DNA of 64,000 nucleotides from Acidisarcina polymorpha. GTDB taxonomy: Bacteria; Acidobacteriota; Terriglobia; Terriglobales; Acidobacteriaceae. Under the pieces are notes generated by a model. The model saw only the letters and a list, made by a program, of their open reading frames with translations, was not told the DNA's origin and did no database searches. Made by a program: the position numbers and the translations under genes. Position 1 is the first letter of the stretch; each line of letters opens with the position of its first letter. The stretch spans positions 3,224,001-3,288,000 of the forward strand of contig NZ_CP030840.1 of NCBI RefSeq assembly GCF_003330725.1, read 5' to 3'. Shown piece by piece: positions 25,758 through 59,387 of the stretch.

Positions 25758-25779
25758 TATCGTACTTGACGTTACGATA
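25758..25779. promoter_or_regulatory. Operator family TATCGTA-N8-TACGATA, site A
   Basis: Perfect 7-bp inverted arms at 25758-25764 and 25773-25779 with an 8-nt spacer. It is one of five sites of the same kind (25758, 27709, 30295, 55738, 55823). It faces the small membrane-protein gene ending upstream promoters at 25610 and lies about 760 bp before the TetR gene at 26540. Confidence 0.75.
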
Positions 25780-26539: not shown

Positions 26540-27262
26540 GTGAAGAGACCGAAGAAAGCTCTAAAAAGACGTCATGCAGGCCGCCCCGCCGCGAGTGAAA
26601 CCGATGCGCATAAGGAACTCATCCTCGATGTGGCGACGCAGGTGTTTCTGGACAAAGGTTTTTCAGCCGCCAGCATGGCGGAGATTGCCGAGCGTGCCGG
26701 CGCCTCGAAAGGCACGCTGTATGCTCTTTACCCAAGTAAGATGGAGCTTTTCATAGGGCTCTTTCGCCGAAGGCTGGCGGCAAGAATCAGTTCGTCAGAT
26801 CGCGAGAAGATGGTGCTGCCTGACCGCCCAATCGAGGAGTCCCTCGAGTTGATAGGCATGAAGTTTCTCAGCTGGGTAGGAAGCGAAGAAGGAAGCCGCT
26901 GGCAGCGTCTCGTCATGTCCGAGTCTGAGAGGTTTCCTGAACTCGGCCGATTGTTCTGGGACAGCGGGCCTGGGATCGGAGCCAGGAACCTAATCCAATA
27001 CCTAGATGCGGCGGCTGAAAAGGGATTTATTGAAATTAGAAATGCCGAGGAAGCAGCCAATCACTTCTTGGGGATCACGTTGGGCGTTTTCTATCTCCGT
27101 AACAGTTTCGGTTTACCACCAATTGTGACTGGCGACGCACAAACTAGAGCGTGGGTCCGTGGTGCTGTTGCCGTATACCTGGACGGGTATCGGACAAAGC
27201 TGCCAACGAGGTCATCCAAGAAGCGTTCTGTCGATGGGCTTTCTTCGCGGAAAGGACTTTGA
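26540..27262 (+). CDS. TetR/AcrR-family transcriptional regulator
   Basis: A 240-residue regulator starting at GTG. A Lys/Arg-rich N terminus (KRPKKALKRRHAGRP) precedes the helix-turn-helix at about residues 28-72 (SAASMAEIAERAGASKGTLY followed by ALYPSKMELF). The C-terminal half has the AcrR-type effector domain with ESERFPELGRLFWDSGPG, the same family signature as the regulator at 35879. It lies between operator sites A and B and is the best local candidate to bind them, but this is inference. Ribosome-binding site is weak, so the start may be a few codons off. Confidence 0.87.
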   Translation: MKRPKKALKRRHAGRPAASETDAHKELILDVATQVFLDKGFSAASMAEIAERAGASKGTLYALYPSKMELFIGLFRRRLAARISSSDREKMVLPDRPIEESLELIGMKFLSWVGSEEGSRWQRLVMSESERFPELGRLFWDSGPGIGARNLIQYLDAAAEKGFIEIRNAEEAANHFLGITLGVFYLRNSFGLPPIVTGDAQTRAWVRGAVAVYLDGYRTKLPTRSSKKRSVDGLSSRKGL

Positions 27263-55844: not shown

Positions 55845-56161
55845 TATTGTTAGATGTTCATGACGGACCTGGGCTTGCAAAGAGAGTTGGTGCGGTGCAC
55901 GTCTACGTTCGATATCTATCATTAGCCGTTTCTGCGATTTTTCGGAGAACGGTTTGGATATGCCTCGAACAACCTTCATCTCCCATGGACGATACCCAGA
56001 CGCCATGGACATGGAAATACGCAAGAAGACGGCCTGCGAAAAAGCCAAAGGCTTGTTTATGCAATGACTCAAAGTTCAAAGATGACGAGAGATTACAGAA
56101 GAAGGCTCTTGCCACCTAGGGAGATGGCTTTGGACCAGAGCAAAATTGAGCCCGGTGAATG

Positions 56162-56377
56162 AGTGGGTGTGCACAAGTGTCGAAGTGCGGTTTCACGCGT
56201 AACCTCAACAAGCTCGATCTTCAAGACGCGACAACTGGCATCGCGCATTGTCCTCGATGCGAGTCATCCGCGGAGGTCACTGAAGGAGACGACACTTGCA
56301 AGAACGGGCCAAAGTCGAGAACAGTCAGTGGGAGAGCGTACACAAATGCCCTAGGTGCGGTTTCACGCGCAACCTGA
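56162..56377 (+). pseudogene. Zinc-ribbon microprotein, first tandem copy, frameshifted
   Basis: From a GTG start the sequence reads GVHKC, then after one missing base (near 56177-56184) KCGFTRNLNKLDLQDATTGI, AHCPRCESSAEV. This is the same CxxC-x19-20-CxxC zinc-ribbon fold as the copy that follows 171 bp later. With the base restored the first CxxC is intact. Both copies are unlike any family recognised here beyond the zinc-ribbon pattern. Confidence 0.55.
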
Positions 56378-56450
56378 ACATGCTGAATCTGCGGGAAGTG
56401 ACTACTGGAATCGCATCTTGCCCTCGGTGTGAGCTATCCGCGCAGGTCGA
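56185..56450 (+). repeat. Tandem duplication, 171-bp period, of the zinc-ribbon coding segment
   Basis: GCGGTTTCACGCG begins at 56187 and again at 56358 and the similarity spans about 100 bp each (GGCATCGCGCATTGTCCTCG vs GGAATCGCATCTTGCCCTCG). The protein level is better conserved than third positions, so the duplication is old and both copies were under selection. Confidence 0.7.
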
Positions 56451-56487
56451 TCTGCAAATTATCCCTCGGAGTGAATCCAACGGGTAG
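56296..56487 (+). CDS. Zinc-ribbon microprotein, second tandem copy
   Basis: A 63-residue protein with HKCPRCGFTRNLNMLNLREV and GIASCPRCELSAQV: two CPRC knuckles about 21 residues apart, a four-Cys zinc ribbon. It starts at TTG with AAGGAG 7 nt upstream. The core region repeats the preceding copy at a 171-bp period. Zinc ribbons of this size bind nucleic acid or proteins; the target is unknown. Confidence 0.65.
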   Translation: MQERAKVENSQWESVHKCPRCGFTRNLNMLNLREVTTGIASCPRCELSAQVDLQIIPRSESNG

Positions 56488-56521: not shown

Positions 56522-56764
56522 TCAAAGGTTCCAACTGTCGATCGGTTCTCGCCAGATCGTCATCCGATCAACAAACCGCTGACCTTGCTTTTTAATCCAC
56601 TGTTCCGACAACAAGAATATCGGAATAGAAATGGCGATCAGCAGCACCGCACAGAGCACATTAGTCGCAATTTCACCTGGCGTGGTCCGGAGCGTAGAGA
56701 GGCTTCCTCCGCAGCATTTGCAAACCCTCTCTGTAGCTGCTTCTTCATCTTTCTGATTGTTCAT
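56522..56764 (-). CDS. Small CxxC-containing single-pass membrane protein
   Basis: An 80-residue protein. The N-terminal part has a VCKCCGGS knuckle, and a single helix follows (NVLCAVLLIAISIPIFLLSE, about residues 35-54) with a basic C-terminal tail. No family recognised. The ATG at 56762-56764 lies inside the 3' end of the upstream HTH gene (20-nt overlap, different frame), with GGAAGAG upstream, which suggests translational coupling. Confidence 0.6.
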   Translation of the reverse strand: MNNQKDEEAATERVCKCCGGSLSTLRTTPGEIATNVLCAVLLIAISIPIFLLSEQWIKKQGQRFVDRMTIWREPIDSWNL

Positions 56765-57521
56765 CCAACTCTTCCAGGTCTTCGAGACTCGGGCCGAACT
56801 CCGCTTCATCCTGATCATCTTCGTCCTCCTCATCTTCCACCGCGTCACTGTTTCCCGCGTTCGCAGCGGCAAACGCAGCCCTCTCCCGCTTGTCGCGACG
56901 AACATCCAGCAGTTGTTCTCCAATCGTGTGCTTCGGCGAAAAGCAGTACTGAAGGTATGCTTCAAACAGGGCTTGATTACGAATGCCGCGTTTCAGCAGG
57001 TCCTGTTGATGCAGCTTGTAGAGCTTGGTCAGAGCTTCCGGCGTGATGATGTAGAAGTGTCGTTTTCCCCGATCCCCAACGCTCGCCTCGAGCCACCCTT
57101 GTTCTATCCAGTGGACAATCTCGCTTTTGCGAACGCGAAGAATGGTAGCCAAAGTCTCAACAGAGAACAGGTCGCAACGAATATCCCGCAGGCTGAGGTG
57201 ATTCCGCCGCAACATGTTGCGAACCGCCTTCGGAGTGCGATTAAGCTTCTTGGCAACCTGCTCGACCGTGCCTTTAACGAGCTCCTCTCGGACCAAGTCG
57301 AATTCAGGGTCAGTCCATCGTCGGTAATCTGGCTTTTGTTTAATGCCGTACTGAATCACGAAGCGCCAGCAGGTTTCTTTCGGACGACCCGTGTGTCGTT
57401 GAATGCGGATGACCAGTTGCTCGAGCTTGTTACCGGTAAGGACCTTGGCCTCGGCAGCCATTTCCTTTGCCTTGCGGCTCCAATCGGGAAAGCTCTCAGC
57501 GGAATTGTGGATGGTTGCCAT
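56745..57521 (-). CDS. Putative DNA-binding HTH protein
   Basis: A 258-residue protein. Residues about 85-115 have a SANT/sigma-like helix-turn-helix (LVKGTVEQVAKKLNRTPKAV), followed by an excisionase/MerR-type helix with a wing (LATILRVRKSEIVHWIEQGW then LEASVGDRGKRHFYIITPEA). The C terminus is a long acidic tail (EDEEDEDDQDEAEFG). It is probably a DNA-binding protein of a little-known soil-bacterial family; no function is assigned. AAGGA lies 6 nt before the ATG at 57521. Overlaps the small membrane-protein gene by 20 nt. Confidence 0.72.
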   Translation of the reverse strand: MATIHNSAESFPDWSRKAKEMAAEAKVLTGNKLEQLVIRIQRHTGRPKETCWRFVIQYGIKQKPDYRRWTDPEFDLVREELVKGTVEQVAKKLNRTPKAVRNMLRRNHLSLRDIRCDLFSVETLATILRVRKSEIVHWIEQGWLEASVGDRGKRHFYIITPEALTKLYKLHQQDLLKRGIRNQALFEAYLQYCFSPKHTIGEQLLDVRRDKRERAAFAAANAGNSDAVEDEEDEDDQDEAEFGPSLEDLEELDEQSER

Positions 57522-58077
57522 AGGAGTCCTTCGTCACCCAAACCGCTCTCAGATCGGCGTTCGTCTGCTGCCAACGGATAGAATCGGCCATAAGCACCGG
57601 CTGTGAGGAAGGGGGGTGAATCGAAGCTTCGTGGCGTGGGGACATGAGACTCCTCCAGGGGGGATGGCGAAGGGCCGAGCATTACTCTGTTTCGGAACGC
57701 CTCCACCGAACACTTTGAAGAGGCCGATTCTTTAGCAACAGACCCTACCGCGCTCTATTCCAGATACGATTCGCCTTCGAAGCGTGAAAGTCCAATACGG
57801 AATCGTAGGTTCGTTATAGCGAAATAGCATAAGAGAGCCAACGGCATAAGAGGAGTCCGGAGACGGCACGAATGCGTCTAAAACATATGGCATCAGACGA
57901 TGGGATGACCTTTGTCTTCGAAAACCGACAGTACTGGCCGACGGTTCGCTGTGCACTGTGAAAGACCCTTCACGCGCCGATCTGTTTCTACGAAACAGAA
58001 GGTCCTGAGGAGACTTCGACAAAGTAACTCATTACGTCCCATCCCACAACTCGCAAGGCAACAACGGGAGCTGGGTT
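57522..58077. other. 556-bp divergent intergenic region
   Basis: No gene is supported. It must hold promoters for the HTH gene and for the LysR gene. TACGATTC (57765-57772) and GAATCGTA (57800-57807) form inverted arms, but with a 27-nt spacer unlike the N8 operator family. Confidence 0.45.
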
Positions 58078-59013
58078 ATGGCGCGCAACGAAACGAAGCA
58101 CTTGGAGTCGGTAGTCGCACTTTCGGAGGAGCTGAACTTCACCTTGGCGGCCCAGAAACTGCATGTCAGCCAACCGGTCGTCTCGCGGAATCTCGCGGAG
58201 ATTGAATCTAGACTTGGCGGCAGGCTTTTTGACCGAGATAGAAAGAATGTGCGACTGAACAAGGCCGGACGAGCATACGTCGATCGGGCGAGGATGGCCC
58301 TTCTGTACGGTGATCGAGCATTCGACGCGGCAAAAGCTGCGATGCACGATACAGATACGATTGTTCATGTGGGCAAGTCGCCGTATGTCGATCCTTTCTT
58401 GCCGTCCACCTTGGTCTCAGTGCAGAGATCTCGGTTTCCCCACATGAGGCTTGAGCTGTCAAGCCAGTACTCGTTCGATTTGGCTCATGAAATCATTGCG
58501 GGAGAGCTGGATCTTGCGATTGCGAATGACCCTCCCGAATCTCCCTCGCTAACGACGGTGAAGATAGCGGAGGCACCGTTCTACATAGCGATGTCGGACA
58601 CGGATGATCTTACGCGAAATCCGTCAGTCACTCTGAACGATCTGGCAGACCGCTGCTGGATTACGTTTGAGCGACGCCTACATCCCACCCTCTATGACAA
58701 CGTTCTCGCAGTTTCTCAGGCAAAGGGAGTTGCAGCCTCACGAATCCAACATGTCAGAGGGCCTGAGGAGGCTTTCCCATCTGTGGCAGAAGGAGGATGT
58801 ATTGCCTTCGTCGTCAAAGCTGGGGCGCTTCGCATTGCTCGAGACGGCGTCACCGTCCGTCCTCTTGCGGAGGGCTCTCTATCACTAAAGACCTATTTAG
58901 TCTCCCGTTCGGACAATGACTCTAAGACCTTGAGTGCCTTGGTTAGGTGTTTCATCCGCCAGCTTGAGGGCGCCACGCGTGATATATCAAGGGATGGTCT
59001 CACCTCAGCGTAG
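58078..59013 (+). CDS. LysR-family transcriptional regulator
   Basis: A 311-residue LysR regulator. The winged helix is at residues 5-65 (VVALSEELNFTLAAQKLHVS then QPVVSRNLAEIESRLGGRLF), and the substrate-binding domain runs from about 90 to 300 (VHVGKSPYVDPFLPSTLV, ISDLDLAIANDPPES-like segment). LysR proteins usually activate a divergent gene when a co-inducer binds, but no divergent enzyme lies here. Starts at ATG 58078; target unknown. Confidence 0.88.
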   Translation: MARNETKHLESVVALSEELNFTLAAQKLHVSQPVVSRNLAEIESRLGGRLFDRDRKNVRLNKAGRAYVDRARMALLYGDRAFDAAKAAMHDTDTIVHVGKSPYVDPFLPSTLVSVQRSRFPHMRLELSSQYSFDLAHEIIAGELDLAIANDPPESPSLTTVKIAEAPFYIAMSDTDDLTRNPSVTLNDLADRCWITFERRLHPTLYDNVLAVSQAKGVAASRIQHVRGPEEAFPSVAEGGCIAFVVKAGALRIARDGVTVRPLAEGSLSLKTYLVSRSDNDSKTLSALVRCFIRQLEGATRDISRDGLTSA

Positions 59014-59102: not shown

Positions 59103-59387
59103 TCACAAGCTTCTTCGACCGGAATCGGCGAGGATGAAGTGCCTTGTGTTGTCCAAATCCCATCGCTTCAGATCAACGCGGGATCGTAGCCGTGTAATCT
59201 CGGAGAACAGTTGGCTCGCCGCTTGGTCATGAATGTATCTTGCCTCAATGGAGACGTTGGTTTTCAGACAGGCGGAGAAAGTAGTGCCGTCGGTGAATTC
59301 AATATGCACTTCCGGACCATATGTGCCGTCTTCATAGATGGTCAGTAGTCGAACGACCTTATCGCTGAGTTCTTTACAATGAATCAT
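59103..59387 (-). CDS. Small conserved-looking protein of unknown function
   Basis: A 94-residue soluble protein with alternating beta strands then helices (VVRLLTIYEDGTYGPEVHIE, DGTTFSACLKTN, FSEITRLRSRVDLKRWDLDN). No family recognised. GGAG lies 5 nt upstream of the ATG, which supports expression. Monocistronic. Confidence 0.6.
   Translation of the reverse strand: MIHCKELSDKVVRLLTIYEDGTYGPEVHIEFTDGTTFSACLKTNVSIEARYIHDQAASQLFSEITRLRSRVDLKRWDLDNTRHFILADSGRRSL

Follow-up and report, generated by a model that had tools for sequence, protein, structure and literature searches.

Tiny zinc proteins acting on the transcription of mobile elements are known from P2/P4-type phages, as the Ogr/Delta zinc-finger activators. 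LysR-type regulators have been described on ICEs. In the Tn4371 family (ICEKKS102Tn4677), TraR is associated with a T-N11-A interrupted inverted repeat immediately before the -35 box of xis and with a further site near the transfer genes, and its overexpression raised xis 80-fold and increased both excision and transfer (PMC11448139). TciR, a LysR-type activator, is the main switch of the ICEclc core genes (PMC4063739), and ICEs have been noted earlier in Acidobacteria (PMC3158045, PMC7661733).

The window analysed here is a stretch of 64,000 nt of the Acidisarcina polymorpha genome (NZ_CP030840.1, positions 3,224,001 to 3,288,000) in which a preliminary description, made from the sequence alone, had reported tandem zinc-ribbon genes. 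These ribbons are probably relics of a two-gene module, composed of a LysR regulator and a ribbon microprotein (ZnR), which would control integrative, partly conjugative islands located at tRNA or tmRNA genes of Acidobacteriaceae, with LysR firing excision and transfer and ZnR as its partner. No description of a LysR-ribbon module was found among the titles and abstracts listed in searches of open-access literature, and a mobile-element control module was absent from the preliminary description.

An intact and a broken ribbon gene in the window

The ORF list and an alignment locate the reported ribbon repeat at 56.12-56.49 kb, in two copies (Table 1). Two tandem CPRC-x20-CPRC genes had been claimed, which holds for copy 2 and not for copy 1. 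Copy 2 opens with a TTG, ends at a stop at 56487, contains both CPRC motifs, encodes MQERAKVENSQWESVHKCPRCGFTRNLNMLNLREVTTGIASCPRCELSAQVDLQIIPRSESNG and is preceded by the one strong ribosome-binding site that had been announced. Copy 1 is broken: a TGA (56160-56162) replaces a conserved Trp codon and, in the first knuckle, one base is deleted between the Cys codons TGT 56178 and TGC 56186 (8 nt instead of 9). A 72-aa ORF opening at ATG 56159 in this copy lacks the first CxxC and re-enters the old frame by chance. The copies are spaced by 169-170 bp, and not by 171 bp as first given. Because dS (0.86) exceeds dN (0.26) over their 105 comparable nt, they appear to derive from an old duplication that was selected for a time, in agreement with the past selection already read from the synonymous changes.

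Table 1. Location of the ribbon copies, of the relic LysR locus and of the small protein family upstream of transfer operators (window positions unless a locus is named)
Feature	Position	Strand	Evidence
Ribbon copy 1, pseudogene	56124..56295	+	By-eye alignment to copy 2, ORFs, partial profile match
Ribbon copy 2, intact 63-aa zinc-ribbon microprotein	56296..56487	+	ORF, profile, alignment, AAGGAG at 56283-56288
ATTGGAC box, 27 bp from operator centre	57790..57796	-	Sequence scan
Imperfect predicted LysR-type operator of the relic LysR, TCTTATGCTATTTCGCTATAACG	57812..57834	-	Operator scans
LysR regulator, not adjacent to the ribbons	58078..59013	+	Pfam HTH_1 and LysR_substrate; tree
94-aa homologue of the small ICE gene preceding the transfer operator in relatives	59103..59387	-	Homology; no Pfam match
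Small-family members	L068: 640-858; L073: 7765-7995; L233; L234; L235; L237; L239; window 59103-59387		

Two operator sites had also been placed upstream of the ribbons. The palindromes are real (55739 and 55824), but they do not resemble the LysR operator linked to ribbons elsewhere and instead belong to a TetR-like set of form ATCGTA-N8-TACGAT, with further members at 25759, 27710 and 30296. Four of the five are perfect, including these last three, which surround an AefR-like TetR gene (26540-27262), and one has one mismatch; a related pattern matched once in the genome outside the window.

A ribbon microprotein family

The alignment of 26 members defines the signature H-x-C-x2-C ... Gly ... 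C-x2-C (G-x3-C-x2-C) followed by a G-P-[LI]-N-like tail. The window's own genome (7.6 Mb, hereafter G000) has eight matches at E <= 1e-3, several of them broken; matches also occur in 19 of 150 genomes of the same taxonomic family, and in at least 12 of 396 genomes drawn from the phylum, a count that is too low since no more than 15 candidates were scored in each genome. Among 84,980 named species genomes, short peptide patterns, which reach close relatives of one subgroup only, recovered 25 ribbon loci, all from Acidobacteriota by record title; the cysteines and neighbours are conserved at these loci, as a check proposed in the preliminary description had sought. Among the searched genomes the family was seen only in Acidobacteriota. 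Searches of plasmids, phages and viral contigs gave zero homologues, so the idea of a phage or plasmid gene was dropped.

Selection on the family is purifying: dN/dS, computed for the 54 pairs whose dS falls in the range 0.05 to 1.5, has a median of 0.32 and never reaches 1. That the protein matches no recognised family was borne out, as the window protein passed no curated Pfam cut-off among the best 25 of the 32 families listed, the Elf1 zinc ribbon (PF05129) reaching 22.1 bits, below its gathering score of 29.8. Sequence searches against NCBIfam, PHROG, Pfam and PDB gave weak matches spread over many different ribbons, and the list of Pfam families for the 26 members did not include Ogr/Delta. 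AlphaFold models of two of the proteins form beta-ribbons (pLDDT 79.1 and 80.5) that, with the two aligned CxxC knuckles, indicate a zinc ribbon with predicted zinc binding. Foldseek returned no significant match for either model, the best for the second being YdjO in the YdjO-SigA model (E 0.26, prob 0.93). The ribbon represents a real microprotein family with past selection, outside assigned families.

Gene order and host islands

At the 25 named-genome loci, a full LysR gene lies tail-to-tail with the ribbon in 20 and a tyrosine-type integrase within about 3 kb of it in 19; a tRNA (Ala, Gln, Met, Asp) or tmRNA was detected beyond the integrase in 13, gene calls being ORF-based, many genomes being drafts and some contigs stopping before the tRNA. 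When neighbour ORFs were grouped by single linkage, 21 loci had a member of a LysR cluster, 16 a member of an integrase-containing cluster that also took in some unrelated ORFs, and 9 an HTH_17 gene. The module order is tRNA 3' end - int - xis - (operator) - LysR - ZnR - cargo.

Direct repeats of 43-47 bp derived from the tRNA were found in three of five islands and one of 22 bp in the fourth, with none in the fifth; the recurring unit corresponds to tRNA positions 33 to 75-79. The second copy is located 38 kb away in G116, 26.7 kb away in G140 (with another 23.6 kb further) and about 98 kb away in G031, where it directly follows the integrase of a second module; the tmRNA of G047 has a 22-bp stretch repeated at 62 kb. 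For locus L066 of the window's genome, no far att repeat was detected within 80 kb, nor genome-wide at up to 3 mismatches, and when the tRNA-Met repeat was searched for in this genome, nothing matched besides the tRNA itself. The G116 island encodes a TrwC relaxase, TrwB and VirB4/6/8/9/10, and that of G140 encodes VirB6/8/10/11 and a TrwC-like fragment (tblastn), the type IV secretion (T4SS) content having been established over the whole island for these two and only near the second operator (see below) for the others. Because they contain type IV secretion genes, both islands are ICE-like.

A converse search showed similar integrases to be common, with 75 of 150 genomes having one at E <= 1e-40, and most of them to lack the module. 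Twenty int loci were fetched, several as short stretches: LysR and ribbon occur together in one (L207), a related LysR without ribbon in L206, a LysR interrupted by a stop or frameshift in L201, a related LysR on the same strand as xis in L219, distant LysRs in L210, L211 and L218, and none in the remaining 13. The LysR-ZnR pair is an optional control cassette of such integrase elements.

In Acidobacteriaceae dw_441 (L045; G129 C4:10000-29900), four ribbons occur in about 15 kb, one directly after a phosphoketolase-length ORF, and one complete LysR lies near xis and int; this region looks like stacked island remnants.

Predicted operators

The stretch separating LysR from xis contains a 23-bp LysR-type palindrome of T-N11-A form, for example CGTCATTCCAAAAAGGAATGACG, and in most modules an ATTGGAC box is found 27 bp from the operator centre, with the operator first. 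This box may be the promoter box of xis, because the three int-xis elements whose LysRs are distant (L210, L211 and L218) have it too. Five stretches have a good palindrome without the box (L057, L058, L065, L115, L124), the dyads of L050, L052, L066, L206 and L207 are poor or displaced, that of L055 is regular, and neither palindrome nor box occurs in L219 or at the second LysR of L052. Among 27 distinct operators, hand-chosen as good dyads, the half-sites compensate each other, 218 of 243 mirrored cells pairing vs 163.5 +/- 6.2 when the right halves were dealt anew. From its T-N11-A dyad and divergent promoter, the site before xis is a predicted LysR-type operator.

Perfect matches to the degenerate operator are often paired, 25-58 kb apart on one contig; among the matches listed for the 19 genomes searched, this applies to G527, G526, G522, G047 and G129. 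The second operator is built in the same way. Of the 12 sites examined, 11 have VirB4/VirB9/VirB10 or other T4SS genes after them, one of these sites, in G140, being a weak dyad below the search threshold, and the twelfth (G129 C4) is followed by a relaxase fragment. Because the xis-side and transfer-side operators match within an island beyond those of other islands (12 mismatches vs 34.2 expected in 8 islands; 0.0003 of 20,000 permutations), one LysR plausibly reads both.

For ZnR itself, a conserved promoter was sought in 16 modules and none was found. Control by a LysR operator of its own found no support, as a second site, sought in the loci of 25 operators, occurs only in L125, with 3 mismatches and far upstream; read-through from cargo found weak support, with 18 of 26 modules co-oriented (3 of 29 not scored).

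An unassigned small protein family (ELSGKxIxxLxIYxD...ExxDGTxFS) is encoded just before the transfer operator (Table 1), and in L241 and the window its member lies tail-to-tail with LysR, in the position of the ribbon. Downstream of the transfer promoter, two distant islands, L068 (480-660, minus strand) and L083 (5860-6010), have leaders that resemble each other, with GCGCCAT..GCTGACA..GAGTCAGCGGAGGTGCAA, possibly an RNA hairpin.

A relic LysR locus in the window

In the tree, the window LysR falls within the one clade of module LysRs, next to L052 and L066. The ribbons are 1.6 kb away from it, in another relative orientation and not tail-to-tail, which speaks against the module reading, and because of this layout a rearrangement is possible, as are two overlapping relics. 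Since no int, xis, att repeat or transfer genes were found beside the ribbons (ORF list and Pfam of adjacent ORFs), the window would hold a decayed element of which only relics are left.

A 258-aa HTH_17 protein is encoded at 56745-57521, with a 59% identical second copy at G000:C1:6730120. Its homologues, present in 10 of 100 genomes of the family, are linked elsewhere neither to LysR nor to int, and it was rejected as xis since, of 8 loci with the protein or a homologue, only that of the window adjoins a module LysR.

Most solitary ribbons of this genome are located within 200 kb (G000:C1 3.08-3.28 Mb; L042, L043, L044 and the window), several being broken and some lying beside LysR 3' remnants. 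This region is a graveyard of such islands.

Co-evolution and alternative explanations

Of the 41 LysRs gathered, 33 are paired with a ribbon and 28 of these modules also have a long integrase match. Over these 28 modules, the Mantel correlation is 0.876 for ribbon and LysR (0 of 5000 permutations), 0.310 for LysR and integrase (permutation fraction 0.0008) and 0.157 for ribbon and integrase (0.054), the last turning to -0.25 as a partial correlation given LysR; the integrase has the opposite orientation in 5 of 28. Ribbon and LysR co-evolve, and integrases are swapped. The H-C-C-C-C motif is intact in 33 of 33 LysR-paired ribbons vs 11 of 17 solitary ones (Fisher p 7.8e-4), the solitary set having been obtained with fragments merged by hand and both window copies counted, and the comparison being biased because the search started from ribbons and broken ones beside LysR are harder to find. 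The 11 intact solitary ribbons, as well as LysRs of the wider clade without a ribbon (L206, L201, L241), count against the module reading, and so do the failure to find a far att repeat for L066 and a LysR operator for ZnR.

These data bear on what else the ribbon might be. Persistence of intact solitary ribbons, and the co-orientation of ZnR with the nearest cargo ORF in the 18 modules mentioned above, would suit a cargo or host gene that merely sits beside the element end without a control role; this is improbable, as ZnR stays constant while cargo differs between islands and its motif is kept throughout the LysR-paired set. It is also unlikely that ZnR is a restriction-alleviation (Lar-like) or other entry or defence-evasion protein, near LysR only through a shared core end: PHROG 6422 is matched by 8 of 26 members (best E 1.6e-4) and NCBIfam Lar by 2 of 26 (best E 0.0078), but many other ribbons were matched equally weakly, and ZnR co-evolves with LysR and not with the integrase 1.5 kb away. 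A DNA-binding accessory of recombination, such as a second directionality factor, is quite improbable as well: the ribbon-integrase correlation is weak, and negative given LysR, and the integrases that the module works with vary in type and orientation. In favour of it, int and xis are no more than about 2 kb from ZnR, and a short zinc ribbon could bind DNA. Finally, a broken copy 1 and a TTG start in copy 2 might suggest chance open frames, a notion that can hardly be entertained and is refuted for the ribbon family by homologues in many genomes with invariant H, C, C, G, C and C and by the dN/dS values given above.

The preferred reading, the LysR-ZnR control module, is built on gene order, att repeats, T4SS genes, co-evolution and two operators, all as read from sequence. 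From LysR biology and TraR of Tn4371, LysR would bind the operators before xis and before the transfer operon and, by analogy with TraR and TciR, would act as an activator that switches on excision and transfer together. We infer that ZnR is a dedicated protein partner of LysR because it co-evolves with it, though without a LysR operator or conserved promoter; it would most likely act on LysR or RNA polymerase/sigma and so gate promoter activation. A more specific picture, possible rather than probable, makes ZnR the dedicated gate of an ICE switch operated by LysR: the 60-aa ribbon would bind LysR, or the RNA polymerase sigma at the two ATTGGAC promoters, and time joint excision and conjugation, and LysR and ZnR would form a portable cassette that has come to sit with different integrases, tRNA sites and cargo in the ICEs of Acidobacteriaceae. 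An orphan ribbon microprotein family hereby gains a concrete, testable context, and one type of integrative island found in abundant soil bacteria gains a readable circuit of control, with two co-varying operators, one regulator and one microprotein partner.

Comparison with known systems

Ogr/Delta and ZnR are alike as tiny zinc proteins of mobile elements, and differ in the spacing of their cysteines. YdjO of Bacillus (PDB 9a6i, YdjO-SigA model) is similar in size to ZnR, with a Foldseek similarity that is non-significant. TciR of ICEclc resembles the module in being a LysR-type regulator on an ICE (PMC4063739); tciR belongs to an mfsR-marR-tciR operon with no ribbon protein, zinc having 0 mentions in that source (PMC4063739), whereas the module described here has a ribbon. 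The likeness to TraR of Tn4371 extends from a LysR regulator on an ICE to a T-N11-A site upstream of xis. There, traR is located downstream of cargo and mpf genes and the main text of the corresponding paper leaves zinc unmentioned (PMC11448139), whereas here, in another phylum, LysR and xis are divergent and a ribbon microprotein accompanies LysR.
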